DNA from: Dysidea avara | Taxonomy: Eukaryota > Porifera > Demospongiae > Dictyoceratida > Dysideidae | Length of the DNA: 64,000 nucleotides | Direction: 5' to 3' | Assembly: GCF_963678975.1 (NCBI RefSeq) | Contig: NC_089276.1 | Location: 26,059,555 to 26,123,554 of the forward strand | Shown: piece after piece, positions 287-63,854 of the stretch | Layout of the letters: every line of letters begins with the position of its first letter | Position numbering within the stretch: the first letter of the stretch is position 1 | Position numbers and translations under genes: made by a program | Notes under the pieces: model-generated | Told to the model about the DNA's origin: nothing | The model's input: the letters and a program-made list of their open reading frames with translations, nothing else | Databases searched by the model: none

Positions 287-293
287 TATAAAG
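287..293 (+). promoter_or_regulatory. TATA box of secreted-protein gene A
   Basis: TATAAAG lies 64-70 bp before the ATG at 357. Paralogous genes B and C have a TATA motif at nearly the same distance. The 5' leader also contains TGCAAACAGT (about 320-329), which recurs in the leader of gene B, so the similarity extends into the untranslated region. This points to a short 5' UTR of about 35-40 nt and a focused, possibly inducible promoter; inducibility is inference. Confidence 0.6.
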
Positions 294-356: not shown

Positions 357-1334
357 ATGAACTTTATTTTCTTCACTACACTACTGATGCCATTGTTGAT
401 AGTTCATTCTCATCCAATCAATATGGTTTGTGTACCAGTTTGTGATACAAGTATTACAGCCAATGAGATACTCATTAATCACTGGTTGAACAATGATGAT
501 TCTACAGGAATAGACCAACTTCTGAACAAGGAGGGTACTGTAACTGAAGTGTTAATAAGATTATCATCTACTGATGTGAGTATACACAGCTCCATGCAAG
601 TAATGTAGTAGCTATATAATATACACACACAACTTTACTCACTGAACTTACTATATGTTCCACTATTTTTCTTCAGCTTAATGATTGTTCCGGTCAATAT
701 AACTTGCTCACAACAGTTGCCACCGATGCTGAAAATGTATCAATTAATTCTCTGGTGGAATTTTTCAATGCATACCTTGTGCATGAACTGTTTGTGGAGC
801 ACTTGATGAGTTTTTCAATTGATGAGCTACTGTTCAATGACTGGGTGAAACAAGCAAATGTTAATGAGCTGTACAATAATCTTCAAAATTTCCAAAACAT
901 TTTACAATACAACTTTAAAAATCTTGCTTATATGGTAAGAGGAATCAATACATTAACTGCATATACTAGGTCACTTTCTTTATTGATACATTAATGTTTG
1001 AGAATTGGTGACATATTGTAGCAATCTGTATGTGTAGTTATTTACTCACATGTGTGTATTTATCCAGCTCAATATTAATGGCACATGTGATGCTTGTAAG
1101 AGAAACTGTTCAAGATCAGATGAAGTCAAGGATTATTTTGTTCAAACTATGAACAGCTGCTCTAGTCCTATCCATCACTTCATTGTGACAGTGGTCAGTC
1201 ACTCACACAAACTGTCTCAAACTTTAAACAAGTTAAAAGAGACAATCACAAACAGTGGTGATATAGAAACAATGGATGTTACACCTCATGATGATATCAG
1301 TATTGATGAGCTCTGTTGGTGTGGTGGTGAATGA
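357..1334 (+). CDS. secreted helical cysteine-containing protein A (cytokine-like candidate), 3 exons
   Basis: The exons are 357-575, 677-934 and 1068-1334, and both introns are phase 0 with GT-AG ends (GTGAG, GTAAG donors; TTCAG, TCCAG acceptors). The product is 247 aa. Residues 1-18 form a signal peptide ending before the family motif SHPI. The mature part has a CVPVC pair, then long amphipathic stretches that read as helices: about 35-70 in exon 1, two in exon 2, one in exon 3. The exon 3 cysteine pattern is TCxxCxRNC, CSSPI and a terminal LCWC. N-glycosylation sequons occur at NVS, NGT and NCS. I do not recognise the family. Signal peptide plus predicted helices plus phase-0 introns are compatible with a four-helix-bundle ligand, but that is inference. 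Two paralogues lie downstream on the opposite strand. Confidence 0.85.
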
Positions 1335-1485
1335 TGACTTTATATAATTATAACTGACAAAAGTAGCAATCTTTGAAATGTAGAACATGTAGTCACTAAT
1401 TACTAGTAACATGTTACAGTTAGCACTAAATTATTGCATAGTGCATGATCAAATCTACACAGTATAGTGATTGTGTATTTGATTT

Positions 1486-1491
1486 AATAAA
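1486..1491 (+). terminator. polyadenylation signal of gene A
   Basis: AATAAA lies 152 bp after the stop codon of gene A, a usual place for a 3' end signal. Confidence 0.5.
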
Positions 1492-2026
1492 ATGCTTTAT
1501 TAATGCTTTATACTGCAATGTATAATTACACAATTACAGCCCACCTCTTTACTATACTGTCACTTGTCTGACCACTACATGCAGATGAAATAAAATACAC
1601 ACATATGCATATAAAGTAATGCTTAATGTTTGGTGTTGTCGACCAACTTTGCCTGGACATTTACAGATGAATAACTTAAAACAAGCACAGACTTGAATAT
1701 TAATTCATAGCTAGAGGTGGCGCCAAGTTTTTTCTGGATACAATTAATTGGTCTGCTTTAGCATATATAGCTATAATGCACAATGACATGTTTTAGGGTA
1801 AAACAACAATGTAGCACTCAGTAGACTCTATAGCTGTTGTAATTGTTCTACTGGAATCCGATCAGCTACAAAATGTATATTGCAAATAAGTACTATACTA
1901 ACAGCTGCATATATAACTACCCATTCCAATATCTTAAACTACGTACTTTGCTGTATTAAAATACAAGGGGATATACTTTGCATGAATTTATAAAAATGAC
2001 TATATATGGTATAAAATACATAGTGA
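1492..2026. other. intergenic between convergent genes A and B
   Basis: A+T-rich DNA separates the convergent genes A and B. No coding signal or repeat was recognised. Confidence 0.4.
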
Positions 2027-2032
2027 TTTATT
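2027..2032 (-). terminator. possible polyadenylation signal of gene B
   Basis: AATAAA on the minus strand lies about 214 bp beyond the stop of gene B. An A-rich plus-strand tract (2075-2220) lies between. Confidence 0.35.
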
Positions 2033-2245
2033 ATTAGTGTCACTTGTAAACATAATTACTGAGAACAATTACAAAAAATAAAAATAAATTAATTAAAAAA
2101 AACAACAAAAAACAATACACAATTCATCATTACTACCTATATAGACACACTTGAGCAATGTACAAACTGGATTGGTAAATTAATTGTAACAAAAAAACAA
2201 ACACACACACAAAAAAACAACAACTAAAACACAGTCATTGATCCA

Positions 2246-3221
2246 TCATTTACCACACCAACAGAGCTCATCAATACTGATATCATCATGAGGTGTAACA
2301 TCCATTGTTTGTATATCACCACTGTTTGTGATTGTCTCTTTTAACTTGTTTAATGTTTGAGATAGTTTGTGTGAGTGATTGACCACTGTCACAATGAAGT
2401 GATGGATAGGACTAGAGCAGCTGTTCATAGTTTGAACAAAATAATCCTTGACTTCATCTGATCTTGAACAGTTTCTTTTACAAGCATCACATGTGCCATT
2501 AATATTGAGCTGTAAAAACAGCATGCAGGCAGCACTAAAATTACTGGCAATATAAATTTAGTGAAAAGCTAAATACATGTAGAGATATTGCTTACCAAAA
2601 TTGCAAGGCTTCTTAGATTGTACTGAAGGATGAGTTTTAGCTTTGCAAGTTGCTTGTTCAAGTCATACACCTTTGTCTGATGTACCCAGCCATTGTACAA
2701 CAATTCACTAAGAGTAAACGTCATCAAATGCTCCACAAATAATTTGTGTACAAGATAAGCATTGAAAAACTGTCTGATAGCGTTGACTGACACATTAGTA
2801 TTTTTTGGAACTCTCACAATAGAGTCGTACTCAAGCAAACAATCATTGTGCTACAGAAAAAAAAACGATAATTGCAAATGTTTCAATATACTTATAGCAA
2901 ATATTTAACTATCACTACATGTGCTTTTAAAAGTCAATCTAATAATTAAACGCCTAATGCATGTTGCACATCACAACCACACTCTCTATGAAGTATACTC
3001 ACATCAGTAGATGATAAACTTATTAGTGTTCTAATCACTGTGCCTTTGTGATTTAGAAATTGGTCTATTCCTGTAGATTGATCATTCCCTAACCATCGAT
3101 TCAGTAGAGTCTCGTTGGCTGTAACATTTGGACTACAAACTGGTACACATATCATATTGATTGGATGAGAGTAAACAAGAAGCAATGGCAGTAGTGCCAC
3201 AGTATACAAAATAGTCTTCAT
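2246..3221 (-). CDS. secreted helical cysteine-containing protein B (paralogue of A), 3 exons
   Basis: The exons on the minus strand are 3221-3003, 2850-2596 and 2509-2246, with both introns in phase 0. The product is 245 aa and has the same plan as A: an 18-residue signal peptide followed by SHPI, CVPVC, the STGIDQ motif, the exon 2 start xNDC, the FFNAYLVHxLFVEHLM helix, and the exon 3 TCxxCxRNC/CSSPI/LCWC cysteines. Extra sequons NVT and NET occur in exon 1. Exons 1 and 2 have clearly diverged from A, whereas exon 3 is almost identical to exon 3 of A (5 differences in 258 nt). That unevenness points to gene conversion between the inverted copies. The function is unknown; a secreted ligand is the best guess. 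Confidence 0.85.
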
Positions 3222-3279
3222 CTTCTTTAAACTGTTTGCACTTGAATCAACTTAACTGAAGCAAGTAATATCGTCATCT

Positions 3280-3287
3280 CTTTTATA
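3280..3287 (-). promoter_or_regulatory. TATA box of gene B
   Basis: TATAAAAG on the minus strand lies 59-66 bp upstream of the ATG at 3221. The leader between them carries TGCAAACAGT, shared with gene A. Confidence 0.6.
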
Positions 3288-3654
3288 CTCTCTTTATTGG
3301 AGGAAACTGATCCACTGTTATCATATTCACAGATTATTTCTTGTACCCTAAGGCCGTGAATATTACTGAGTTTCATAATAGTCAAGTAATTCATTATATG
3401 GAGCTATGACATGATGAACAAGGATATTATGACATCATTAGGTAGTTTCAGACTCATCAAATTATCCATGCACTTGCTCACAGCTATAATAATATTATTG
3501 GGAGATGAGAAACTGATAATCAACTTTACATGAACTCAGTGTACATGTTATGTGCTAATGAGACCAACCAATATAGTACTTAACATGATTATATACCACT
3601 TTGACACCTCAGATCAAAGGAAATCACAGGGTTATATATCACATATCTCCCTGA

Positions 3655-3686
3655 CCACAGGGCAATATCTAGATATTGCCCTGTGG
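3655..3686. repeat. 32-bp perfect palindrome
   Basis: The palindrome runs from CCACAGGG to CCCTGTGG with centre ATCTAGAT. It is perfectly self-complementary over 32 bp and extends a few more bases with one mismatch. A related CAATATCATGATAT segment follows at about 3692. It could be a foldback transposon remnant. Confidence 0.7.
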
Positions 3687-3779
3687 TTAGGACAATATCA
3701 TGATATAGCCCTGACCACAACTGCCTTTGATGCTGAGGCAGCTACAAAGCATCAGTTCCCTTTGATTATTTATATAGAG

Positions 3780-3851
3780 ATGCTTAAAGTTTTGCATAGT
3801 GGGTTTGAATTAGAGCTGCTTAAAGTTTTGCATTGTGGGTTTGAATTAAAC
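3780..3851 (+). repeat. two-unit tandem repeat, 36-bp period
   Basis: Two adjacent copies of a 36-bp unit starting TGCTTAAAGTTTTGCA differ at a few positions. They create a small open frame with no family resemblance, so I do not call a gene. Confidence 0.65.
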
Positions 3852-4239
3852 ATGTTGATTTAGTCAGGGGCATTGTTGTGAAGTAAAAAGAAATGAGTGA
3901 GTCAGCATTGCATAGTTCAGTTACTAAGCATCACTAAATAATCATTTTTGCAATGTGGATTGTTTTTCTACAGAGTACATTTCAACTGCACGAAAAGATG
4001 CCTCAAACATTCACAACCTATATTTCTAAGTGTTTGTTTTAGCACCTTAGGTAACTTTATTCATCCACAAAGTGATTATTTGGTTTAAAATGGTATCACT
4101 ACAACCAGTGAAACCCACAATCATTTCTTTTTTGTGCCCACAATCGATTTTTACAAACCTCTGTATAAAAGTAATGTGGTGAATGCAGGTTTGTCTTCCT
4201 TCACCTATTAGGTGAGCATGCCAGAGTGGTATATATTAC

Positions 4240-4329
4240 TTATACCATGGCTACTCAGGATTTTCCTGATATATATGCCCTCGCCCTCGGGCATATACAT
4301 CAGGCAAATCCCTTGTGGCCATGGTATAA
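4240..4329. repeat. foldback element with TTATACCATGG ends
   Basis: The inverted ends TTATACCATGG and CCATGGTATAA flank an imperfect hairpin. Its core has CCTGATATATATGCCC facing GGGCATATACATCAGGCA. A sequence with the same ATCAGGCA core recurs at about 35,510-35,570 and 51,773-51,858, so this is a dispersed foldback family. Confidence 0.65.
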
Positions 4330-5253
4330 CTATTAAATGATCCCTTGCTGATTGAATTTTTAATTTTCCACAATAGATTTAGAAATAAATGTGTTAATTA
4401 ATCACTAACACTGTAATATGACAATCCCTTCTTTGTCTCAAAGATGCATCGTGAAGTGAGGATTCATAACATAAACTGCTGACTGTGGATATGATCACAG
4501 GTTCTTTAACATGTTTAGGGTAACACGGTTACTCCTCTACCTAAACATCCTACATATTTAATACCCTACCCCAGTCATACGTAGGATACAAAGTATTTGT
4601 TCATGTACACTAAGTAGTTGTTGTGCGATACCTTAAGTTAGTTACATGCATAACATGTTTATGCTTAATTCCATTTGAGTTACGTGAACATAACCTGGCT
4701 ATGTGATGACAAAGTCACTTATATGGACTTTATCCAACTGCTTGAGCAAGTTACATTCGGAACCGTAACAATGTACATTGTGTACATGTATGTATAACTA
4801 GTGTATTGAACAAGAATCATGTATATGGAACTCAAATTTTACATTATGGGAATGAATATGTACTTACTACCTTACACAAGTGAAAAGACCACACCAAATA
4901 ATTCTAATGCCACTTCTAATTATAGTGCATGGAATGCATCATGAAATGAAAGTGTTGCATGTCAACTATAGTAATGATAGAATTCAACGGTTTGGTTTGC
5001 ATGTGAATTAAGAATAAGTAAATGCATGCTAACATAATTTTTTTTTTATATGTACATGTTAGCACACGAGGCTTTGTTATATAGACAAACGACTAACCTA
5101 TTAGTTGAATAACACAAATAGCCATGCCATGCATCTCAATCAACGATGCAGGTACTTTAAATAGATTATTTTAAAAATCCAATAGGTATACATGTCTAAC
5201 GTAAGTACATGTGTATACATAATGAAGCACACACACAGCAAGCCATCAACCAT

Positions 5254-6137
5254 CTAGTTGCACCAACAAAGACTGTCAACATCTTCGGTTAGTGGATTGT
5301 TCATTTCTTTGTTACTACTTGATTGGTCATCAACCACATGTTTCAATCTTTTTACCACTTTATACAATTTCTCTGAGTGTGAAGTAATAGTAAATACTAC
5401 ACTGCGAATAGGACTAGAGCAGTGACTCATTTTAGAGATAAGTGATGCAACCATCTCAATTGATTTTGAGCAATTTCTTGTACAACCATGACAAGTTGTG
5501 TTCAGCTGTATAACAAAGAATTACACATAACTAGTAACACATAGTGTGTAATTATACCCTTACCAGTTGACCAAGGTTCTTGATATTGTAATTTAGAATG
5601 TTCAATAGCTTGGTAAGATTGGTATAAGTATCAACTGCAGTTGGCGGCTGTAGCCAATCCCTTACTAGTAGCTTAACCTCGCCTAGTCCAACTAGATGCT
5701 TAACATAAAGTTTATGCATCAAGTAAGCATTGAAGAAGTGTCTGATAGTAGTGATGGATGTGTCATTATAGCATGAAGAACTGTTACATGATGTCATATT
5801 TACATAATCCTCTAAGCAGTCATGAAACTATAGACAACAAAATGAATTTACTGTATACATGCAGATGGCAAAAGTTACATACCTTTATAGGGTTTTGGCT
5901 TTGTAGTGTAAGTATTATACTGGCCACACTGTTTCTACTACGACGACGAAGTTGATCAATTCCTTTAGAATTATCACTGAAATCCAACCACTTATCCAAG
6001 AACATCTTATCAGCAGTGATGTTATCAGTACAGAATTGATCCATCACACTAGCATTTTCACTACCTCCAGAAGTACATATAGGATGAGAATTCACTATTA
6101 GTACCAGCAACGAGACAGAAACTAAGACAGCTTGCAT
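5254..6137 (-). CDS. secreted helical cysteine-containing protein C (divergent paralogue), 3 exons
   Basis: The exons on the minus strand are 6137-5883, 5827-5564 and 5505-5254. Both introns are phase 0 at positions equivalent to A and B. The product is 256 aa. It keeps the signal peptide ending before SHPI, the GIDQL motif, the xHDC start of exon 2, the FFNAYLxHKL helix, TCxxCxRNCS, CSSPI and the terminal LCWC. Exon 1 is 36 nt longer because of an insertion between the two N-terminal cysteines, and exon 2 has an extra cysteine pair (SCNSSSC). The rest is strongly diverged from A and B, so C is the oldest branch. What survives is the cysteine pattern, helix pattern and exon plan, which argues for purifying selection on the fold. 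Confidence 0.83.
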
Positions 6138-6200: not shown

Positions 6201-6208
6201 GTTTTATA
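6201..6208 (-). promoter_or_regulatory. TATA box of gene C
   Basis: TATAAAAC on the minus strand lies 64-71 bp before the ATG at 6137, the same spacing as in A and B. Confidence 0.6.
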
Positions 6209-15288: not shown

Positions 15289-30848
<15,560 letters not shown>

Positions 30849-32654: not shown

Positions 32655-35600
32655 ATGGGCGGTGATATAGAACACGAGCACGACGAGGCTGGTGAACACT
32701 GTGCGGAAAAGGTGCTGACTAGCACCGCGTATGGGAGCGGTGTAGGTGAGTACTAGTGGGCACTAATAGGAAACATATTAGAAAACCAGCTTATAGATAT
32801 TATAGCTCACGAAAGCACATCTTAAGTAGCAAGTAGTGCTGGTTGGCTGTCATAGCTTCTAAATCCCCACCTGGGTTAGATGGGGTGTGTGACCATAGAT
32901 CTATGGTTAAACCTTGATAGATGTATAAGGGGTGAATACTTTGGGATCCCTTATCTAACTGTCCAGACCATTTTTGTGCATTCACATAAGATTGTGCTAT
33001 TAAGTATGCTGGGTGTTTGTAAGCTTAGTGATGGACATTCAATGCAACAATCACTCTTCTGTAAAAGTACGGTTTCCAAGCTGCAGTGTGTAGTTAATTA
33101 ATTTTTGTTGAACTGTTTTGTTCATTTACTTGTGAACATTTTGTACCGCCTGTGCGTGGTGTGTCTTTAAACTCTTTATATGCACACGCACACACGCACG
33201 CACACTCCAGAGTCAAGATATAAGGTAAAGCTGCAACATAGGTAGTATATAGAAGTAATTATGTTTTACACAATAGGATTACTCCTTGGTGGCTCAGTAT
33301 ATGCAGCAGAGTTTGTGCTACATGAAGCATCATTTACAAGATTTGGTTTCAAGGTGATGGCCCATACTACAGGACTAATAGGTAAGGCTAAGTCACCTTC
33401 TCATCACCTCATGTGATGTGTGTTCTGCAGGCACAGCATCTGCAGTGGGTGCTGCCGCATCATGTGTGTCAGCTGGAATAAGAAAAAAAGATGATCATGT
33501 CAATGCTATGATTGGTGGTGCCTGTGCTGGCTTGATATTTGGATTTAGAAGTGAGTAAATATATGCACTGCACATCATTATGTAGCTCATTTGTAAATAC
33601 ATTCAACAATAGAACTTTTGTGATAACTGTTTCCTGTTAGTCCTTGCTGTTGCTGTTTCTTGCGTTAAGCAAAAAATGATGTTATATAGTGCCATGCTTT
33701 CTTGTTAAACCCGTCTATAAACGTAGCTTGAGACGCAATCTGGATTTTTGTAGAGCAAAAAAAAATCGGGAAAATCAATGTAGGGCAAACATTTTTGAAG
33801 TGTTTCTGAGCACTAGAATACTAATTACTACCTGAAATACAAACCCTGTAGGTCATACTTTATCAATACTTGGGATTTGCTGAAAAAGAATGATGGGGCG
33901 ACTTTTCTGAACAGCTGGTTTATGACCGCGAAATTTTAATTACCTCCTAAAAACTTACTTTAACGTCTGAAAGGTAACTTATTTTACCATACCTGGGTTT
34001 ATTAATGGTTTTAGTCCTCAAACTTTCATTCCTTGATTGATAAGTTCCGGTTGACATTGCTTTTCTTTTGCCCTTCAAAAATTGTTGTTAATTTGTGCAT
34101 GCGGCACATTTTTATGACCACACCTCTTCGTTGAACATGTCTATATCTAGAGTGATGTCCATGTACATGTTTCAGCACTACTACACTTCTAAAGAGTAGC
34201 GCACCACTGTGACAGCATTTGAAAAATGGACACCTCAATTCACTCTTGGCCTTCATGTTCAGTATCAATAAAGGCTCCACTTAGGTTGATATGCTGGAAA
34301 GAAAGTAGTAAACACTTAAATTTACATGCACGAGGGAGTATACAGGCACGACTTCAGGTACAGTAACTGAAGGTAGTGCGCATGTTACTTCAACAAGGCA
34401 ACAAATATGGCCAACTACACTATAATAACAAAAATTAGGAATTTTAGTTGGATTAGGGATCAAAGAAAGAAAAAGTAGTAAAACAAAGGGAGAAGCTTTT
34501 TAAAAAGTAGGGAAGCAAAAAGGGTTTCCTATACCTGCAAGTATATACTGGTGGACATTTAACCCTTAAACCCACATATGCCAGAAAACTGGCCCTAATG
34601 GGTGTGCCTTGCACAAAGTGTTCTAACTTTCAAAGCATCTATCCTATGGCTACACAATTTATGTCATTCTACTTGTGATATAACAAGGATTAAAATGATA
34701 CCAAGGGTTTTACCCTAACGCTTAACAGCGAGGTCAAAACTAGCCATGTAAATAGCTTTCTGGCAAGGAAAACACGCAAACCCTTTTCATACCTTATAAA
34801 ATGACCTATAACTCAGTGGTGATTGCTCCTACCAACTTGCAACAAGTTACGTTCGTTTCGCCATAAAATTTCTATCAGGCCATATACTGTATGACTCAGT
34901 AGAGTAAAAACTATTGATGTTACCAATCTAACATCAACAGCCAAAAACAAAACTAAAACAAGTCAATGGAGATGGGATTTGAACCCATGCGTGCAGAGCA
35001 CAATGGATTAGCAGTCCATCGCCTTAACCACTCGGCCACTCCACCGCTATGAACTGTTAATGCTACAAAACTCTATCTAACACAGGGGAGGTGGAAATAT
35101 AATATCCAATGTTAAATTGGTATCCAAAAAAACATAAACAAATAATTTATTGGTATGAATTACAATAATTGAAAAATTATGGAGAATTCTTCATTATTTA
35201 CATTTTGTGTATAGTGCGTCCATTCCACTGTTTTTACACCCCTGTGCTATTACATGAATGCAACTGCACCACTACGTTTGTTTGTTGGTGCTACAGAACT
35301 GGTAATGAGACATGAACCAGTCCAACTGTAAATCTGATTAGCACCTAATGTGTTTAGGTATGTCAACACAGCACTGAAATGGCTTATGACACTTGCATGG
35401 GTGCACCCACTTTGACAAGCATGAAAAAAAAACATTTTTGTATATTGTGACCCGCTGAGCCTCACTAGTTTGCATAATTCTGTTTGTGAGTTGGATTGTA
35501 AGTGAAGTGCGGCCCTCGGGCAGTCGGGCATACGTATCAGGCAAAGTCCTCATGCTTGTGTTAGAAAAATGAATGCTACAATAATAAATTGCTTCAGTTA

Positions 35601-46075: not shown

Positions 46076-46500
46076 AAATTAACAGTCTTCCATAAACTCA
46101 TATTATTTCTTTTGTAAATAGTATTTTTCGGAACTCCGTCCCATTCAGCACTTTGTCCATTTCCTTGCAATGGCAGGCACGCCCCTTTTTAGGCAGCTTT
46201 TGTCACTTAATGCCATTTTGTAATTACCTTATGGTTAAACTAATAAGTATAAAGGACTTGATAAGGTTAAAGTGGTTCAGCTGTGCTGTCTACTGAGTGC
46301 TATATTAGAGTATTATATTAATTAATCGATTATGGGTTTGGGTTTATGTTGTGATAGTTGCATTTGTAGTCAGAGCAGGCAGCACAGTGTTTGCAATCAC
46401 AAGAAGTTTTGTTAAGTGTAAGTTATAGTGTTTATGCATGATTATTATAGATATGAACATCCTTACGTAGGCTTCGATCGGTAGAATTTCCACTGGTGGA

Positions 46501-49500
46501 ATGTCACAGTTCTACACGATAAAACCTCTGCCATTAGTGGGTGCAGAAATATTTGGGGTTGACCTCAAGCTGAATGTCAACGATGATGTTATCGCTCAGA
46601 TAAAGCTGGACGTCACAAAGTACAGGCTGCTTATATTTCGTGACCAAGGCATCATCTCAGGAGATAGACACGTGGAGATCAGTAAATGGTTTGGCGAGTT
46701 GGACTCCACATTCTACAATCATCCTCGGTCTCCACACCTGGATGTGTTCAGAGTGTCTAATAACGAAGAGGAAGGGTGTAGGGGGGTGGGGCGCACTGGA
46801 TGGCACATTGATGGTAGTTTTCAACCAGCACCATTTGGATATTCTTTGTACCACATTGTGTCTGTACCAACTAGTGGAGATACAGGTATTATATGCATGA
46901 ACACTGTACATAGTGTCTAAAACTTTACATGCAGCACAAGGTTAAAACCGGGTTAGTATCAAATGGACTCTTACCCCAGGTGGTGATCCAGCCGGATATA
47001 GTAATCCAGATTGATCAGACCTGGATCTGACCCGGTTTAATTAAAACAAAGGCGTGTGTCAAGAACCACAATATGGGCACTCCACTAGCTATAGTGTGTT
47101 AAGAAAATGGAGTAACTATATCAGAATAGCCACACTGAACACGGGTAAATTTTATCAGTGATTGATTAGTCAGCATGGCTACAGACACCAAACCTTAAAT
47201 AGGGTGTGGCCCGCAAAAGAAGCTGGGCTCTACAACTAGACTACTGTATGGCAGGAAAATTTCTAAAGGTGGAAAAAAAGTGCTTGATTGAAAGTTCAAA
47301 AAATACTTTCGAAACAGTTCCTCTTTACCACTCTGCACCATAGATAATTAACTAGAAAGATTCATGAAGTTAATTGGAGGAAGCTAACAATGGTTGTGTT
47401 GATCATGTACAGTAGAATTTGCTGCTTTGATTGTTCAACATAAAGAGTCCCATTTGGCTTTTGGTAGAATCGTGTCTAGCTACCTCTTCCTCTTTCGTAG
47501 CTTGAACCAACATGTTTGGCCTTAATCCAAGTGGCCTGCGGGTTGAGCCATGACTAGTTGGTGTTTTTTTTCAGCCCTTGCAGGTATTTGCTATCATTTC
47601 ACTTAGGCTAGGATATAATGAGCGCCTCAAGACTCATGGTATCACTCGTGGTATAACTTGAGTTGTGTTCGCCTTCCCATATGCATGGTGGCCCAGTGCC
47701 TAGCTTACTTATAAAGTAGAAAACATGCACTTGAACTTCATTTATATGCTTTCTTTGATTGTCACTTTTAAGATGTAATATTGGTCCTTGTAGCTAGCTA
47801 ACTATTTCTGATAAATTATGAAAGTATAGACGAAAATGCATTGTTATTTTTCGAAACTTTAACCTTTAGAATTTTTTAGAAATTTACTGCTTTACAGTAT
47901 GATGTGTACATACACTTCTACATTGTCAAGGTTTTCACAGTTGATCCAATCTGCCAGGTATATTTCTAAAAGGCAATTCAGGCCTGATTGACTGTGACCT
48001 GTAGCTAGTTGACCAACCCAATTTCAACCCTGATGCAGTAGGTAGGTACTTACGTAGGTGCAGTATACATACAGTACATGTATGAGGAGGGGTCTGCACC
48101 TCTCCTGCAGCTTGTTAAATCTAAGTTTGTGACAAATTTTGCATTTCCCTGATACAACATGTCATGTGATTCAAGGTAGTGTTCCAGATGCAAAAAAAAA
48201 AATTGCTCTGAAATGTTGAAATCATGCCATGATAATTATCTTGAAGAATCGATATGTCATGTAGGGTTTTCAGAACCTAACGGATTACTGCTGCTACAGC
48301 AATTCTGAGGTATTACACATATAAGTGTGGTACAGTCAACCTTTAAACAAAAGCAAGGAGTCAAACGCAAGAGAGTCCGAAACACTTAATCTTTGTTGTA
48401 GTGTCCTATTTGTGATGCTGAAAAAAAACCAGTTGAAGACAAATGATAAGTCCAAGCCCATGAGTCCTGTATTGCCCATGAGGATAGGGCTTTCATGCCA
48501 ATGTATTTAATATTTGTGACTAATATTGCTATTGTAGTGTTCAAAGGTGTAATTTTGCTATATTATTTTCATACTTGATAAATTGTGTCATTATGTAGAT
48601 TCTTAACATTGGATATAGAACTGTGTGGCAGTAGAGACTGTTGTATTTCCTGTTATATTATGTGTAGTGATCGTATATTCTCATCCACAGCATTTTCTCC
48701 ACTCAATGAGGTAGTACAGTCCCTTACACCAGATCAGTACACAAGATGGAACAAGTTATACATGATGTCTGATAGAAGGGGTAGTCTCACTCATCCTCTG
48801 ATATATCCTCATCCTTTGACTGGGAAAGAAGTAAGGAAGCATAAAATGATAATGCAAGCGTTGCTTACAGAATGTGTGTGCAAATTTATATTACAATAAA
48901 ACTGACCTGAGTGACTGTCACTACTTTTATGACAAATTCCAGTGAAGGTCTCACTGAAGACACTGATTGTTGACCTTAACTGGAATTTGCCATATAATGG
49001 TCTTTAAGTCTTTTTTTTACGGGAAATTTTTAGGTGATGTGATCATGGTTATGAAACCCCCATAGAAATTTACACAGTATGGAATTTGAAGAGTTTGAGA
49101 CTTAGACCTCCCAACTCAGGTGGATAAGGTCATCAAATAACAGTTCCCACCTAGGGATATGTAATAGTTACAAGTATAACAAAAATTAGGAATTTTAAAT
49201 TAGAGTAGGACAGTGTATAGTGCTGAAATAAAAAGTAGCACAGTAGGGATATTCACTTCTTATTGTTTTACAGTATTTGGACATTACGTACTACTCCGAT
49301 CCAGCTTGTTTCAGTACTTTTTATTACAGCACTATACACTGTCCCTACTCTAATTTAAAATTCCTAATTTTTTCTTATACTTGTTTGTGAAGTTTTTTTT
49401 ACAAGCTCATGACCACTAAATAGCCTGCTTTTCACAAAACCAGTCACAACATTTTAAAAGAGTTAATTACAGCACTGTTATACTAGATTATGACTCATAC

Positions 49501-54040: not shown

Positions 54041-57000
54041 ATGGATAGGCGTAGCGATACAATAAGTAGTACGGGAAGAGCAACTATGTTACTTATGACG
54101 TTGATGATGTTTAGTATCGTTTTAAAAGGTGAGGTCAACGTAGACACGTATACAGTTTCTTTTCGTAGTCAGAGTATTAATTATATATATCGTGATATAA
54201 TGTGTGATGATGGTATTGTAGCGACATATGTTCCACAAACGACTATCCATGCACATGCATACAGGGGCGGGGTTTCAAGTATCCACAATACAGTACTAAA
54301 GTCATGCCATTCGATTACTATTCAATTTATATCTGCTGTGGCCAACCCCACGGTAGTCAGACTGGTACGGAGAATGTACTGCCTCTTATTTGGTCTCTTA
54401 ATGTTCTGTCAGCTGGATTATATTATTGTGCCCATCTTAGGCTGTTAACGGGTTGTTCCAGCAGTCCACTAAATGTAAGCGAATTATCAAACACACTAAC
54501 TGTACGTAAGAAAGAAATTTTTCTTGATTAGGCCACTCCAAATAAATTCTCTGTTTCCTGTCCAATGCCCACATCTAGTTACTGTCAACTCTAAATATCC
54601 CATCATTCCGTATTCTTTCAGGTTGTCTATAGTAAAAGCGATCTTGTAGGCAAATACGACCACCTCAGAAAAAACATGTATATAGTTAGAATAATTTCCC
54701 AATTTGTCTCAATATTATCCATATAGCAATAGCTGTGTTTTGTGCAGCTGCTGTAGGCTTTACATACATACCTATGTGAGTTTATTCTTCTCAATTGTCA
54801 CATTTGTAGCATCATCAAGTGACCTACAAGTGAACATCACATCCAATGTCACATTGACTGATAGTTTAGTGTGTGAGAATGCACTGATTTCACTCACTTG
54901 TGATGCTGTTAATGCCACTAAGCCAGAGTACAAGTGGTTCCCTTTAGAGGAGACCAATAGAACTATTGTGGTAACAGTTACTGATGTATCCACAGAGTAT
55001 AATTGCACGGTTACTGATGTTAACCATAATACTGGATACTCTGCCATCAATGTTCTAAGTAATGGTGAGTATGTTATGTCTAAGGGGAAGTGTATTGAAT
55101 AGTATTGTGTATTTGATGCAGTATTAGATATGTGTTCTAGCATAGATATACTATACACATAGGGATTGGAAACGGAACTCGCGCACTATAACATCCGTGT
55201 TTCGGTTTGCATCATAGTGTGGTTGCTAAGGACGATGATGGCGAGCAGGTGTGTCCGTAGTTTATCTGTTTGTCGCTAACTTCACTTCAGGATGAAGCAG
55301 TTAAGTCTCCCAGGACAATAACAAAAGTTTGAAGAGTTTGCAAGAGCTGTATTTCGGCGAATTTTCGGTAGTGACACATTGGATGCTGTTGCATGATTTA
55401 TCCAGTTTGTTTAGTGACTGATTTCAACGACCCGTGACCTTGTACTGAGTCGTATATTTGAAAGAACGGACTTTAGATGTATTCCATACCGTACCATACT
55501 GTCCTGCAAGTGTGTCTGCAACTAGCTAATAGAACACTTGGTCCACCAGGCCACATTCTTCAATTCCCAGTCCAGGTCATTCTATGATTTCATAGATTTG
55601 CAGGAGGCCTGTATGGAAGCTTCAGTACTTACGTGGCATTATACTACAAAGTGGATAAACATGATTGATTGGTCCCAGTATGGCTTCAGTTAATTACACA
55701 AGCCATTCACCATTGCTACAGAGTTGGCTAAAGGTAGCTGCACCAGTACAGCCAGACTGTGTTAAGTCGACAATCCGTCACACTAACTAACAAAGAAACC
55801 ATACACTTTGAATATTTTAACTGTACAGTGTAATATGTGTACGTTGATTATGAATTATGTGTGCAATGTAGCTAGCTATAAATGTTTATGTCACTTCTTT
55901 TGAAAGTACACGTACTGTTTAAACATATAATTTGGTAGTGCATCTTGAGCTCTTGCTTGTTAGTCATCAGTACACTGTCATTTGGTGTTCTTTGATGGAT
56001 GTCTAATCATGTGGCTTGGATGATTTCTTCAAAATTTTGTGTCTTATTAGAAGATTGTGTCGTGCCATACAGCTTTGGTTTCAGAGCAATTCAACACACA
56101 CTTTACACCCCCCAAGTGTGGTAGTAGTTGATGGTATGGTAAATTGATATCTAGCATCGGTCATGGGCCTACTAAAAGTCCACAAGTGTAAAGTGGTAAG
56201 CAGTAATTTTATAAATATGACAATTGATACAATAACTCCAAGTTGCCTATTACACTACACACTTGATATAGATTTCAAAACAAAGCTACCTAAGCTGCTT
56301 CCCAACACAGAGAATCTGTGAAAAGTCTACAAAAATGAGACGGTGAGGCCATAACATAATTCGCTTACCTCTTGACATACTGGTGGCTTGTTTATTACGA
56401 ACAACAGTCTCTTGTGGTTGCACACGCATTCCTGTTATTGTGTACAAGGCTAGGTTAACCAATTCATCAAGTTAAAAGTCGACAAATTGCTAATAGTTGG
56501 CAAATAAAGCCATTAGAAATAATATCGCGCTCGTAACTACGGACAGTATCTATGGTGACTAACTAGCGCAAGCAAAACATGGATGATTTTTCGAGCTCAT
56601 TACGTCACATTGGGAATTTGTACAGAGACGTCACATGAGTTACTTCCGTTTCCAATCCCATTGTAAAGTGTAAAGGTTAGTATATCTATGGTTCTAGTGA
56701 TATTGTAGTTGCTAGGAGGTCCAAAACATGCTATACTGATCTATTGGAATCTGGCCTATGCACTGTTTACCTATTACTCCACCATCCATTAGGTAGCAAA
56801 TAAGCATATATGGTTTCTTATGTTGTAGCAATTACAATGTGAATATATGTACTAAAATGTATTTATCAGCGTCTTTATTTAATTTGTTTCTGTCACAGGC
56901 TCTGCTCCAGTATTATTTAAACACTTCCCTGATTATGCAGATTTATATTCTGGATATGCTGCTAATTTTACAGTAGAAATTGTTAGGAGCAGTCCACCTT

Positions 57001-60000
57001 TGGTTCATAGTAGTTGGTCAAGATTCCATGCTCCATTAAATGACAGTGGACGTGCATTTATCTTTAACTTCACTAGTGGTGGTAGTCAGTATAGCTCACT
57101 GGTAATCCATGATCTTTCCATAAGTTATGATTCAGGAAATTATACTTATTGTGCATCTAACAAATGTGGAGAGTCATGTGTGTCTGGTAATCTCAATGTA
57201 CTACCAGGTGTGTTTGTATGTATGTAAAATGTACACGCGTTCATATGTATTATAATTACGTATATGCATAAACTTGTACTTAACGGTGATGGGTGGGAGT
57301 CACCACTGGCTGGGGCATTTTGGACAGGTAAAACCAGGCCTACACCACTGGATACAGTATTGTAGCAGACGTGGGTTAACAAGGACCTGTTCCCAGTAGT
57401 TTTGTAGCTGACAGTTTACCTTTAACACTCAAATTGTTGCTGCCTTCTATTTATATATCATACAGTGCAATAGTACTGTTATCGTACTGTATAGTAGGGA
57501 CCACGCGGCCCATGAAAATACATCACCCAAAAACCAGCCTCACATTTCCCTGATGACAATGAAGTAGGCCCTAACAAGCCTTCAGATCGATCCAAAATAC
57601 TTTCAGCAAGTTATTAAACAGAATTTTCTGCTGACTGACTGATTCCTTCTGACAAGTGTAACTTGATAATGGCTAAGGATACAGGCTTGATTTTTTCACT
57701 GTTCCACGTCACTTCAGCTGGATATGTGCCTTTTGGTACACCGCAGTACATACAATGCATTCTTCATGGACTTACCAGTGTACATCTTTGTGTCCCATTC
57801 ATCTTTGCTGACAGCGAAAGGTGCCGATTTAGTGGTAGCATGTGCACTTCGTGAAATCATCCGTATTTTTCATAATGGCTACTTTGATTGCAGAGGTGCT
57901 TTTCAAACAGTTCTTGATTGTAATGCTGTGAAACAGGTTGAACATGGTTGACAATGAAGCATAATGGATACTTCACTTTTCAGGTGATAATTGATAGCTG
58001 GGGTGCATAGCACCATTTCTTTCTTTTGATGAGGTATGCGTGGGTTCAGTAGTCATAATTTTTATTTTACAAAAAAAGTTAACAAACAAGTACACAAAAA
58101 ATTGGAATTTTCAATTAGAGTAGGGACCTTAGCACATTGATAAAAAGTACTGAAACAAGCTGGAGTAGTGCATGATATTAAATTACAGTAAAATAAGAAG
58201 TGTTATATTCCTACTGTGCATTTCCATTATGGTATCTTGAGCACAGTAAGGATATAACACTTCTTATTGTTTACTGTGATTTAGTTATACCAAAAATACC
58301 GTATACTGCAGTATTTTCATCAAACCGTTTGAAAGGTACTGACTTTCAAATATACCAGTAATATTTGAATGAGTGTAGTGTGCTATGAGGGAAGCCAGAC
58401 ATCAGGTCTTGGCATTTAATTAAGTTATGTATTGATGGGGTTTGGATGTGACACAAGGCCAACCTAACAGTAAACTGTGATTACAACCTAGTACCAGCCT
58501 ACTTGTATCAACAACTGTATAGATGTTAGTAATATGCATTTAATACCTGTTAGTCATGAGTAACTTTTACTTGTGGTATATACCCAACTTTGTATAGTAA
58601 CTACAGATTAACACTTGATTGTTTTTATCACAAATAAAGCAATACCAGGTTGATTAAAAGTGCGTTATTTGTTGACTTCCAGGATACCATGAAATACTGG
58701 ATACTGGGGTATTTTCTCAATACCGAATACCAGTATTAAAAATGTCACGTACTGCCCAACACTAGATTTAGTATCATGCACTACTCCAGCTTGTTTCAGT
58801 ACTTTTTATCGATGGTCCCTACTCTAGTTATTTATACTGGTATTTAAAAATTTTAAAAATAAAGTAGGGATCTATGCAATAAAAAGTAATGAAACAGGAG
58901 ATAAATGATGGTATAACAACATAGCTTGGTGGGAAGTCTGTACTTTGGCATAGATTAAAACAATTGTTATAGCAGTAGGGACTTTCCCACCGAACTATGT
59001 TGTAATACCATCGTTCATCTCTTGTTTCACCACTTCTTCTTGCATAGATCCCTACTTCATTTTAAATTAACAATTTTTAGTTAGCACAGCTAGCTACAGT
59101 GTAACTTGTGACTGTTCTATTAGAATATCTGTTGTATGTAGAGTATTTCAAGTCGGCCAAGGGCTGTGCAGCTAGCTAGACCAATAGGTCATCTTGTTTA
59201 CTGTTAAGTAAATGGCTAGATTGTTAAGAGGTGTGGTCTCTGTTAGAGATGTACTGATTCAACTTTTCTGAACTTTACCAATACTGATCCGATCTAGGAA
59301 ATTTATTACCGATCTACCAATATTGTACCAATCTGATATCAGTTAACTAATATGATGACTGATCTTGTACAGGTAGTTCTTATAGCTTTCTAATTGGTCA
59401 ATTGTTAGCTGAATGATGATCACAGCATTGTTACTGAAGTCAATACCAATGGTGGTGTGGCCTCAATTACACCACCCAGTCAATCTGCAGTGACAGCACT
59501 CACAAATAATTATTTTAATGCATGCTCTATTAAGACTTGCCTGGTTTGTAGGCTGTTGTAGCAGAGATTCTAATAGTTTAGTCTATTTGATATGGTGTAG
59601 CACTATTCATTGTTTTCTGCCCAAGGACCTCTGGTAAGTTTAAGTGTAAGTTTCAGTAATCAAAACAGCTAACTTGCACATATTTGTATGGCTTCTCATA
59701 GTTTTAATGGGCACCAGGCAAAGAAATGGCACTGTACTTTAGCTTGTTTTGTAAATGGAGCAGAGAAATGAAAGAAGAAGTTTAGTATGTTTGAAGATAT
59801 GGTGATTAGAAAAATCGGTAGCATGAATCGGTGGTTTCAATAGAAAATCGATTCTACTGGTTTTGCTCAAATTGTCAAGATTGGTACTGATCTGATATTA
59901 GATTGATAGATTGGTACATCTCTAGTCTCTGTACTCTGTCGCTATTATCCAACCTAGACTTTTATTTGATATTTGATGGGTGTGGTCATGAACCTATCGT

Positions 60001-63000
60001 AAACAAGATCCCAATCATGAAGTTGCAGATATCTAGCTAGTATACCTCTTGCAGCGCCAGGACTGAAGCAATTCTGAAATCCAGTTCTGAAATAATTCTG
60101 AATAATTATGCTGTTGAAAAAAAGTGTTGATATGGAAAATTAATGCCTCAATATGGTTTCGTTGGATGAAGAAGATAAGCAGTTTGATTGAAGATAAAAG
60201 ACAAGGCACAGAGGGCCTACACTCATCGGAACCCCAAAAGGCACATCCCACTGGTGATTTTTTTTTAAATTGTGGCATAAAATGGTGACCGTATGCTGCT
60301 TTAGTTGGCGCGACTGTGGTGAGACAGTGAGACTAAAATTCAAGTTTTGACGATTTTAATAAAATTTCATATCTGGCCACGTGTAAGTGTTTTTGTTATA
60401 TATTAGTATTATTCTGTAAAGGTGATTTTTCATTGTGCAAGATGTCTCTGGGATGATTTTCAAAGGCCGAATTTTGGGAGGCGTGAAATTTTTCATTAAT
60501 TCCCTACTTAAATGGTACTACCGTACCGTTTGATATAAGTATGTGCAGGGGCTTCCCTAAAGAGTGGTAAAGTGGTTCACCCCTCTATTCAAAATTCTTT
60601 AGATGTGGTAAAAAGAATGTATATAATTAACAAATTGACTTTGTAGCAAGTGGCCAACTGACAATACTCAATGAACTGTATTAAATTGTACACAAGGTCA
60701 CCCACCAGTCATATCTGTACTACACATGCGTTATACAACAATAGCACTAAATAGAATACAATACACAAAATTAATAGTCCAATGTGTTACACTATTCCCT
60801 CCTTTAGAAGAACTCATCCCAAGTTCAGTGGCAAACAAAGTCAACAAGACGGGCAAGAGGGTGGTGTAAGTGTGCTGGGTACTTCTGTGTTTCTCCACAA
60901 GCCATAGGTAGACTGTCTCTATCTTCATTGTCATTGTGACCATCACTCATAATCTGCAAAGTTGGAGCTTGAAATTGAGTGGGACGAGAAGACTGAGTAG
61001 ATTGTTTGATGCTGTCTTTACATTGTAGTGGGTTCACTCTATTACATGCCTTCAGATGGTCACAATGTACAATACATCTCTTAGAATGGTGTTTAGTATG
61101 TTGAATTTGGTATGTTGAATCAGAGAGCTGCTTAACTATAGTGTATGGCCCAGTCCATGGTCTATGAAATTTCTTTGATTTTCCTAGTGGGACAACTGGA
61201 TTGAATAGCCAAACTGAATCCCCTTTGTGATAAGGACACCCATGAGATTTCTTATCATAGATCTCTTTCTGTTGATGCAGGTTGTTGCTTAGATTATCTT
61301 GCACAACTTTGTAAGATTCTTGTAGCGTTTGCTGAAGTTTAGCAACATAATCATTATGTAGTACAGGCTGCTTGTTGGGGAGCTAAAACGCTAAGTCCAC
61401 CAGAAGCCTAACTTGGCGTCCAAACATCAAGAAGAAAGGGATGTAACCTGTGCTTGCCTGTACACTAGAGTTGTAAGCACAACAAAGTGGGCATAAGTGG
61501 TCTTCCCAATCCCATGGATGATCTGCTACTACACTGGACAACATTGATAACAGAGTGCGGTTAAACCGCTTCACAAGACCATCTGATTGTGGACAATAAG
61601 GGGTCATCCTGGTCTCCCATATCTGTAGAAGGTTAGCAAGTTCTTTATTCAAATTGTCTTCCCTGGTCCGAATGGAGTTGGTCCAGTAGAGAAAACCTAA
61701 AAAAAAACTCATCCACCAGTTTTTTTGCAACTGTACCTGCTTCCTGATTGGGTGAAGCGTATGGTTCTGTCCAACAGGTAAAATAGTCAGAGAACACAAG
61801 GACATAGGAATTCTTCTGGGAGCTCTCTGGTAAGGGTCCTAGAAGGTCCATTGCTACCAACTGGAGAGGATAGCCAGGATAAACATTTATAAGCTGTGCT
61901 CTTTGTTTAGGGGCTGGGGTTTTCCCCATCACACAATCAGAGCATTGTTGGCACCACTTGTGGACATCTTCGGTATGACCAGGCCGGTAAAATCTCTCTC
62001 GTAACCGGTTAAGGGTTTTGTCTTCCCCCAGATGACCACCAACAGCCCCACTATGTAAATCATGTAAGATCTCCTGTAATACAAGTGGAACTACCAGCTG
62101 TGCCCATTTCTCTTCCCCATGGCAATCTTCATAGCGACGAAATAATAGTCCCTGCCGGATGTAAAGTTGATTCCACTGCTGGAGAAGTAGATGGAACTTT
62201 CTGTCCTTTTCTTGAGTCATGTTGGAAGATGGTCTTTTATTTTCAGTAACAGCCTTTAAGATAGGACCAACTACCTCATCAGCTTGCTGCAGTTGTTGTA
62301 AATCTGATGTAGTAAAATCGTCATTCATTTATGCACTAGTTACAACAGCTAGACTTGTGCATTCTAATAGAACATTCACTGTCTACAGGAACCTTGTTTG
62401 TAGCTGTACTCTGCATGGTCACTTGATTGTTGATTGTAGCTACACTCTCTACAGGATTATTTGCTACTTACTGAATATTATAATAGGGTGACTACATTAT
62501 TAGGATATCTTGATCGAGACTTTGTTACATCTTAATCTTGATTTCTTTTAAACCACCAATAGGCACTCCTACAATGGTTAATTTTACTATATACCAATTT
62601 TCAACTGATTACTCAAAGTGATTTACCCTGTAGGTGTGACAGGAGTTTGATCTTATTTTATTTACATGAATAATTGGTCATAACTTAGTGAATCTTGATT
62701 GGATTTCCTCCAAAACTGATATTGAGGTTCACTTTATTTATCCTTTTAAATCAGCTTGATTGGAATACGCACTTATGTTTTATGGTGGATTTTGAAAAGT
62801 GTGCAAAAAAGTAGTAGAAAAACTGAAGAAAATAACTTAATGCTGCTTGTATCTTGGAAATTACTTTGGTGATTTCTTTCAAATTTGGTATGTTGATTCC
62901 ACTATCTGGTAGACATATCTGCAGCAAAATTGGTTCCAGTTAATTGGGAGCTATGTATTACCGTATGTACAAATTAAAATTTTTGTTCCTGTCAATATAC

Positions 63001-63667
63001 TTACAGTATGGCTCGCCGAGTTCTTGGGCTACATGACACGGTACTGTGTGTCTTGATTAGTTTAGCTAGTTTTAGAGATTTGTAATATAACAGGTATGAT
63101 CAATTGTGCAGTTTTTGTATAATTAAGATAGCAGCATTGTTTTCATAAGTATACCACTGTATTGTATCTTCCATGATACTGTATACTGTCATACAGGGCT
63201 ACATGGAAAATACAGCACACTTTGATACTCCCACACAAAGTACAATATATATATATATATATAGGGATTATTATTGTGTTTTTGCTATGACACAGGCATT
63301 ATATGCTATGATGATAATATGCCATTGCCCATTACAAGTATCAGTGATAATCAGACAGCTGTTGAAGGTGGAAATGTAACTTATATGTGCTCATTTGGAG
63401 CTAATTATAATGATCATACTAGTGGAATATACTTTATTAATTGGATGATTCAAATCAAGGATGGAGACGTTATTTATGTGGATGATAAAACCTTTTCTGA
63501 TATGTATAAGGTAGATGCACCGTCACAGGATTGTCCACCTGGAAATTCTTCATGTTGTAACTTTATCAGCAAGCTACATATACACACCACAGTTGTGCTA
63601 GATCAAGCTGTTATTTCCTGTCATGTAAATGCGTACAGTTTGAATAATGAGAAAAATTCTTTGCTAA
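54041..63667 (+). CDS. immunoglobulin-superfamily secreted/surface protein, 5' part (continues past window)
   Basis: Exon 1 starts at 54041 (MDRRSDTISSTGRAT, then a hydrophobic signal segment) with a GTGAGG donor after 54128, phase 1. An Ig-like piece ending at 54505 has LSAGLYYCAH and a phase-1 GTAAGA donor; its 5' boundary is unresolved because the frame changes between 54,128 and about 54,300. Clear phase-1 Ig exons follow: 54810-55064 (SLTCDA, YKWF, TEYNCTV), 56899-57207 (SWSRF, DSGNYTYCA) and 63296-63667 (VTYMCSF, INWM, VISCHV). One domain per phase-1 exon is typical of IgSF receptors. The last donor (GTGAGT at 63668) shows the gene runs beyond the window, so a membrane anchor cannot be judged. 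The domain in 56899-57207 lacks an obvious first (B-strand) cysteine. Sequons are abundant (NIT, NVT, NRT, NCT, NFT). Confidence 0.8.
55162..56661. mobile_element. ~1.5-kb non-autonomous DNA element with 16-bp TIRs
   Basis: Left end GGGATTGGAAACGGAA and right end TTCCGTTTCCAATCCC are exact inverted repeats 1.5 kb apart. No frame above about 60 codons lies between them. It fills most of the intron between two Ig exons. No clear target duplication was found. Confidence 0.65.
57490..58110 (-). mobile_element. GGGATCAT-family copy, minus orientation, degraded
   Basis: The order of landmarks is reversed relative to 39,080: CCCAAAAACCAGCC, then CAGTACATACAATGCA, then TGTCCCATTC, ending with GGTCATAATTTTTATT-like sequence. 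The open frames at 57,663-57,951 come from the repeat. Confidence 0.55.
58100..58860. mobile_element. foldback element with GAGTAGGGACC ends and internal insertion
   Basis: The left arm AATTAGAGTAGGGACCTTAG, AAAAAGTACTGAAACAAGC and GGAGTAGTGCATGATA is mirrored at 58,770-58,835 (TATCATGCACTACTCC, GCTTGTTTCAGTACTTTTT, GGTCCCTACTCTA). The ~500-bp middle holds another element ending GTACTGCCCAACACTA, which looks like a hAT-type end. Confidence 0.65.
58856..59075. mobile_element. ~210-bp foldback MITE
   Basis: AAAGTAGGGATCTATGCAA with ATGATGGTATAACAACATAG is mirrored by CTATGTTGTAATACCATC and TTGCATAGATCCCTAC. It directly abuts the previous foldback. Confidence 0.75.
59244..59924. mobile_element. 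681-bp hAT-type element, perfect 8-bp TSD
   Basis: The ends TAGAGATGTACTGATT and GATTGGTACATCTCTA are inverted repeats. GTCTCTGT is directly repeated at 59236-59243 and 59925-59932. Subterminal ACCAATACTGATC/GATCTGATAT motifs recur at both ends. No transposase is encoded. Confidence 0.85.
60100..60360. repeat. dispersed repeat related to 50,810-50,960
   Basis: GATATGGAAAATTAATGCC, GAAGAAGATAA and GATTGAAGATAAAA are in the same order as in the 50.8-kb copy. Confidence 0.5.
60825..62328 (-). pseudogene. decayed Ty3/gypsy retrotransposon integrase region
   Basis: The minus-strand frames 62328-61645, 61805-61383 and 61304-60825 cover successive parts of one integrase, so the copy is broken by at least two frame changes (near 61,650 and between 61,383 and 61,304). 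The first part holds the zinc-binding region (HxxxxGGHLG, then CQQCSDC) and the start of the catalytic core with VAMDLLGPLP and HSDQG. The second has PYCPQSDGLVKRFNRTL, in which the third catalytic residue, normally Glu in this motif, reads Lys. The third resembles the C-terminal region after the core (KSKKFHRPWTGPY). No gag, protease or RT and no LTR pair were found. It lies antisense in an intron of the Ig gene. Confidence 0.85.
62330..63240. other. Ig gene intron, no clear feature
   Basis: AT-rich intronic sequence. A short (TA)n tract lies at about 63,246-63,263, just before the last Ig exon. Confidence 0.4.
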
Positions 63668-63854
63668 GTGAGTTACATGATATACGTATTTAGTAAATTA
63701 ATAGGCACCCCTCATTTGTCATATATTGAGTTCATATGTTTGTAACTTTTAGAGCAAGTATGTGCACTTGGCTATTACATATTTCACCCTATCATATTTA
63801 TATGTATTAAATATAGTAATTTTAACTCCGAAACGACTTCATATTGCATATTAT

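Follow-up and report, generated by a model that had tools for sequence, protein, structure and literature searches.

The closest described systems to the gene family studied here are the helical cytokines (the IL-10/interferon-lambda group, the long-chain class I cytokines and CSF1/IL-34). As far as PMC2654155 describes them, the IL-10 and interferon-lambda genes have phase-0 introns, human and mouse interferon-lambda 2 and 3 are mutually inverted with >97% identity, and kinship among helical cytokines is hard to detect by sequence. Such cytokines evolve faster than sequence searches can follow, and animals that arose early have been reported to possess many orphan receptors and few recognisable ligands; sponges, in particular, have orphan receptor tyrosine kinases, which leave a ligand gap that a family of this kind could fill. 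Here we describe three paralogous genes, A, B and C, in a 64,000-nucleotide stretch of the genome of the sponge Dysidea avara (the window; C5:26059555-26123554), which an earlier reading of the sequence, the original prediction, had proposed as a cluster encoding cytokine-like ligands. We favour the reading, at a probability of roughly 0.38, that they belong to a lineage-restricted, recently amplified secreted family of about 230-250 residues acting as extracellular immune or defence-type ligands.

The family has in common with helical cytokines a leader, helices (in low-confidence models here), cysteines, clustered paralogues and phase-0 introns, the last being an unspecific likeness, and one whose placement between helices rests on poor models. 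Inverted neighbours also occur in both, as the interferon-lambda 2/3 genes of PMC2654155 show. In contrast to the five exons of the IL-10 group there are three coding exons here, the models show more than four helices, and the array is far larger than those of helical cytokines. No sequence or profile match links helical cytokines to the family, whose helical fold is a prediction from poor models. The parts of the three genes are as follows.

287..293, plus strand: TATAAAG of gene A, motif start 70 nucleotides before the ATG
357..575, plus strand: gene A exon 1, with leader peptide 1-18, putative mature N-terminus HPI, first family-wide cysteine C29, and W43
677..934, plus strand: gene A exon 2, with C77, the motif FFNAYLxHxLxVxHL and, as modelled at low confidence, two long helices
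1068..1334, plus strand: gene A exon 3 including stop, with TCxxCxRNC, CSSPI, a long amphipathic segment and LCWC
2246..2509, minus strand: gene B exon 3 including stop
2596..2850, minus strand: gene B exon 2
3003..3221, minus strand: gene B exon 1
3281..3287, minus strand: TATAAAA of gene B, motif start 66 nucleotides before the ATG
5254..5505, minus strand: gene C exon 3 including stop
5564..5827, minus strand: gene C exon 2, with two extra cysteines, C99 and C104
5883..6137, minus strand: gene C exon 1
6202..6208, minus strand: TATAAAA of gene C, motif start 71 nucleotides before the ATG

The three-exon genes were present where the original prediction had placed them, on mixed strands (A plus, 357-1334; B minus, 3221-2246; C minus, 6137-5254), and encode proteins of 247, 245 and 256 amino acids (aa), respectively. 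All six introns are GT-AG and 55-152 nucleotides long; they are in phase 0 and at aligned positions, as had been claimed. A and B are 71% identical and A and C 36%. Since the blastp expectation values (E) were 1e-132 for A/B, 3e-45 for A/C and 7e-43 for B/C, and the proportion of non-synonymous differences (pN) was below that of synonymous ones (pS) in every pairwise comparison, the relation of the three is beyond chance. For A/C over the full coding sequence pS was 0.735 and pN 0.41, and a pN so far under pS is the mark of a selected coding sequence. A hydrophobic leader with V-x-S stands ahead of HPI in all three proteins, and the predicted SHPI, TCxxCxRNC, CSSPI and LCWC were common to them. 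A TATAAAR motif starts 66-71 nucleotides before each ATG, against a background frequency for TATAWAR of 0.00086 per base and strand. Profile searches of the window revealed no further family exons at E < 0.01. Between genes B and C lies an inverted repeat (4231-4338) with 50-nucleotide arms, 82% complementary, and an 8-nucleotide loop.

As a cluster of three, however, the original prediction was incomplete. We searched the genome (550.8 Mb in 108 contigs), the locus counts being lower bounds, and found at least 44 loci bearing exon 3: 13 of type A/B, 8 of type C and 23 of a more divergent type, D. At least 42 lie within 519 kb of C5 (25546674-26065691), and the window's three genes form the right-hand end of this array; the other two are on C6 (29053738-29058638). 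The exon 3 of gene A matched 13 times, always within C5 25.90-26.06 Mb, and that of gene C gave 23 rows, of which 13 fell on the A/B loci already found and the other 10 form 8 C-type loci, two of them split. Profiles added exon-3-like matches at 25.874 and 25.893 Mb, which led to the divergent D copies. The exon 3 of D then identified at least 23 loci, 21 on C5 (25.547-25.894 Mb) and two on C6 near 29.05 Mb, and the 23 matches to D exon 2 adjoined the same loci. Two of these, D1 and D2 (271 aa, three exons, four introns all in phase 0), follow the gene plan of A-C and share with them the exon 2/3 border, at which L is followed by LNIT; C and D1 are 25% identical (E 1e-13). In a protein tree rooted on D, the A, B and C types were each monophyletic and D was not; on this tree, D is a label for the remainder rather than one clade. 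The order A(+)B(-)C(-) recurs upstream, with broken units and lone copies, in the 190 kb read; A-type exon 1 occurs near 25.950, 25.971, 25.988, 26.006, 26.024 and 26.060 Mb, at a spacing of 17-36 kb. A-type exon fragments for which no exon 3 was found were seen at 25.913, 25.914, 25.988 and 26.024 Mb.

We read the DNA of 35 of the 44 loci (26 in C5 25.83-26.12 Mb, seven D loci singly and the two on C6), nine D loci lying outside this set. A script returned 25 intact models, of which 24 were kept (4 A, 4 B, 6 C and 10 D); the model starting at 25992705 was left out, as it differed from the rest in its start and in the end of exon 1. The other 10 loci were either broken, by stops or split frames, or not resolved by the script, and may include intact genes. 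In some D copies, such as D2, the ATG picked by the script lies downstream of the probable true one, and the D copy at 25572968, counted as intact, has an altered C-terminus. In gene A numbering, 16 columns were invariant in all 24 proteins: S18, C29, W43, C77, Y81, H109, L142, L149, N152, C166, C173, C190, P193, L208, L215 and C244. Six cysteines (C29, C77, C166, C173, C190 and C244) are thus family-wide, and P20, the second residue past the presumed cleavage site, was kept in 23 of 24. The fixed cysteine pattern of the original prediction held within A-C; LCWC did not extend to the whole family, nine of the ten intact D copies ending in WCHY instead. TATAWA was found within 150 nucleotides before the chosen ATG in 24/24, though as related copies these are not independent. 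Two extra cysteines (CNSSxC) in exon 2 were present in five of the six intact C-type proteins, the exception being 25938551, and were lacking in intact A, B and D.

Selection was measured as omega by the Nei-Gojobori method on pooled pairs within each type. The values were 0.33 for A, 0.42 for B, 0.47 for C and 0.46 for D, and by exon 0.28-0.69 within types; selection on the family, as judged from these ratios, is purifying. Comparison of A with B (16 pairs) gave a synonymous divergence (dS) of 0.54 in exon 1, 2.03 in exon 2 and just 0.105 in exon 3, and exon 3 was significantly short of synonymous differences (Fisher p ~2e-10, from rounded counts with sites taken as independent). In trees built from the 14 intact genes of types A, B and C, exons 1-2 put A and B in separate clades (support 0.96 and 0.98), whereas in the tree of exon 3 they were intermixed. 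The tracts concerned in the window are:

1059..1325, no strand: exon-3 tract of A, near-identical to B (7 mismatches in 267), putatively through gene conversion
2252..2518, no strand: partner tract in gene B, inverted, from the same 267-nucleotide comparison

Because exons 1-2 separate A from B while exon 3 is homogenised, gene conversion between neighbouring opposite-strand genes is the simplest account of the uniform exon 3; an old exon replacement preceding the growth of the array would be an alternative still to be reckoned with.

In the reading we favour, the leader would be removed after S, ahead of HPI in A-C and ahead of xPL in nine of the ten intact D copies. The mature protein would have an alpha-helical core held by disulfides from the six invariant cysteines, with extra type-specific cysteines besides. 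A TATA promoter would drive its expression, possibly on demand. Outside the cell it would bind a protein partner, serving as a soluble ligand in immunity or defence. Between A and B, the face built by exons 1-2 would have diverged, whereas gene conversion would keep near-identical the exon-3 module, which consists of a loop with cysteines and the final long helix. With exon 3 uniform and exons 1-2 divergent, the two types would seem to have one contact in common and another of their own. Copies would be born and lost in tandem arrays by birth and death. Action in the manner of a helical cytokine may be part of this, and we do not file the family as a cytokine.

Several points weigh against this reading. 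The leader peptide was judged by eye, against the (-3,-1) rule for signal-peptide cleavage. The cysteines number nine in A, nine in B and eleven in C, so their disulfide pairing is unclear, and the TATA motif is no proof of induction. No arms race shows in omega over whole exons, the top within-type value being 0.69 (exon 3 of B). Large arrays with broken copies would also suit antimicrobial, venom-like or reproductive proteins, and effectors, or other families evolving by birth and death, account for the size of the array, its broken copies and the exon-3 conversion no less well than ligands do. The main rival accordingly takes the products to be secreted defence effectors, helical cysteine-linked proteins that would hit microbes, parasites or competitors directly (antimicrobial, opsonin-like or toxin-like) and that would be amplified because dose and diversity matter. 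The tandem arrays with broken copies and conversion, the amphipathic last helical segment (193-219) and the want of relatives in the searched libraries agree with it. However, a mature size of about 230 aa and isoelectric points of 4.5-8.0 are unlike those of short cationic antimicrobial peptides, and within-type omega was 0.33-0.47 rather than above 1. We regard effectors as a serious possibility, though on balance a doubtful one; even for an effector family, a uniform exon 3 against divergent exons 1-2 of A and B would be a neat case of part-wise concerted evolution. A protein of reproduction, allorecognition or the matrix, made by few cells, would likewise be fast diverging, amplified, leader-bearing and devoid of known relatives, but no transmembrane stretch or repeat was noticed by eye in the spliced products of A-C, and we give this explanation little credence.

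The predicted structures cut both ways for our reading: being all-helical and alike in helix order they speak for it, but neither establishes a fold. AlphaFold, given three sequences, returned all-helical models for gene A (predicted local distance difference test, pLDDT, 37.6; predicted template modelling score, pTM, 0.34) and for mature C (pLDDT 42.9, pTM 0.39), at which levels a four-helix bundle is not readable. Helix order was alike in both, with short helices from exon 1, then two long helices from exon 2, and an exon 3 part in which a loop with cysteines and a short helix precede the long final helix. In the better model, mature C, 83 of 239 residues reached pLDDT 50 and none of the 239 reached 70. 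A permutation test of hydrophobic periodicity on the 24 intact members reached significance at 0.05 for 134-160 (p=0.015) and for 193-219 (p=0.0002) out of six segments, the other four giving 0.057-0.16; on the three window proteins alone, two of seven segments were significant. The amphipathic helices of the original prediction were thus borne out in part, the models being all-helical at very low confidence and the periodicity significant in those two segments. Taken with the models, the two segments speak for our reading, and we consider the proteins to be probably helical. Fold-search matches were given no weight because model confidence was too low. Their low-confidence rows include fungal fatty-acid binding Mp1-type domains, which, together with the helical models, leader, several cysteines and clustered genes, would suit an extracellular carrier whose helical cavity binds lipids or small molecules, in function like Mp1 or the odorant-binding proteins. 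Saposin-like and insect odorant-binding proteins are likewise small, helical and secreted and conserve six cysteines, the SapB pattern being CxxC...C...C...CxxC. The number is alike here, but the order and spacing of the cysteines differ from both patterns, and neither saposin-like (SapB) nor PBP/GOBP families of Pfam matched A, B, C, D1 or D2. A carrier is improbable in our estimate.

Searches against known families gave little. In Pfam, taken up to E 10 although the HMMER filters drop most matches above about E 0.1, no family reached cut-off and no cytokine model matched for A, B, C, D1 or D2. NCBIfam had no match for A-C, PHROGs gave weak matches alone for A-C, and the Protein Data Bank (PDB), by sequence or profile, offered no credible solved structure. 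No relative was found on the searched contigs outside the window's genome, this genome being the only animal sequence collection searched. That the proteins are unrecognised, as the original prediction had it, agrees with the Pfam, NCBIfam and PDB-sequence searches. Since helical cytokine kinship is reportedly hard to detect by sequence, such a lack of match does not exclude helical cytokines.

A bona fide helical cytokine (class I/II or CSF1-like four-helix), acting through receptor tyrosine kinases or JAK-STAT, would fit the leader peptide and helical models, the long loop that precedes the final helix in the two poor models and the phase-0 introns, as in IL-10 and interferon-lambda genes in the account of PMC2654155. 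The penultimate proline at the presumed mature N-terminus would match the cleavage preference of DPP4, for which G-CSF, GM-CSF, erythropoietin and IL-3 are reported as substrates, as far as PMC5104965 covers them. Partial STAT_bind matches point the same way and also count in favour of our own reading: four above the Pfam cut-off lie on C10 17768905-17887406 (119 kb), each covering 42/133 positions, with controls silent, and four in a row are possibly a STAT tandem cluster. Against this, no cytokine Pfam family or solved cytokine was matched, and the class I receptor CRLF3 was not found in Porifera according to PMC6797617, within the scope of what it states there. The class I receptor and JAK domains EpoR_lig-bind and FERM_F2 (PF09067, PF18377) had no match, though the 14 control genomes were silent as well, so the result is uninformative. 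We rank this explanation third and consider it distinctly unlikely. Of the cytokine-like ligand family first proposed, the phase-0 introns and leader-bearing, selected and probably helical proteins without recognisable relatives in the searched libraries have stood, while the four-helix fold stays a conjecture.

A bolder form of the ligand reading would see an unrecognised animal cytokine-like family of >40 loci in a half-megabase cluster, with a contact from exon 3 that gene conversion keeps uniform between A and B and a diversified one from exons 1-2, serving as ligands for orphan immunoglobulin (Ig)/FN3 receptor kinases or the STAT pathway; we think it rather unlikely. A large family whose genes are intact, under selection and gathered in one cluster, and whose products carry a leader and are probably helical, would nevertheless supply concrete candidates for expression, structure solution and receptor pairing.

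The predicted Ig-superfamily gene was confirmed in the window by an I-set exon at 56883-57224 (plus strand, E 7.5e-6); we claim no link between it and A-C. One or more Ig-domain genes may lie here: an Ig_3 match at 54695-55099 (plus) was below cut-off (E 0.003), and a third Ig-like exon at 63265-63690 (plus) was recognised by eye alone, with no Pfam match. No kinase domain was found near the Ig exons among 88 open reading frames (ORFs) of 34-63.7 kb. The I-set and STAT matches would fit an animal. Among 119 other ORFs of 6.2-33.6 kb, Pfam matches to RrnaAD (E 7e-11) and Tim17 (E 3e-5) occurred, and the exon at 25237-25353 (minus) resembles the rRNA dimethyladenosine transferase DIMT1. The window also holds a tRNA-Ser(GCT) at 34962-35046 (minus) and a TauD/TfdA-type dioxygenase exon at 46471-46917 (plus, Pfam E 1.7e-13), with further exons suspected by eye to about 53284. 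A retroelement integrase ORF lies at 61648-62328 (minus), with H2C2 above cut-off and rve (E 1.2e-6) below it.

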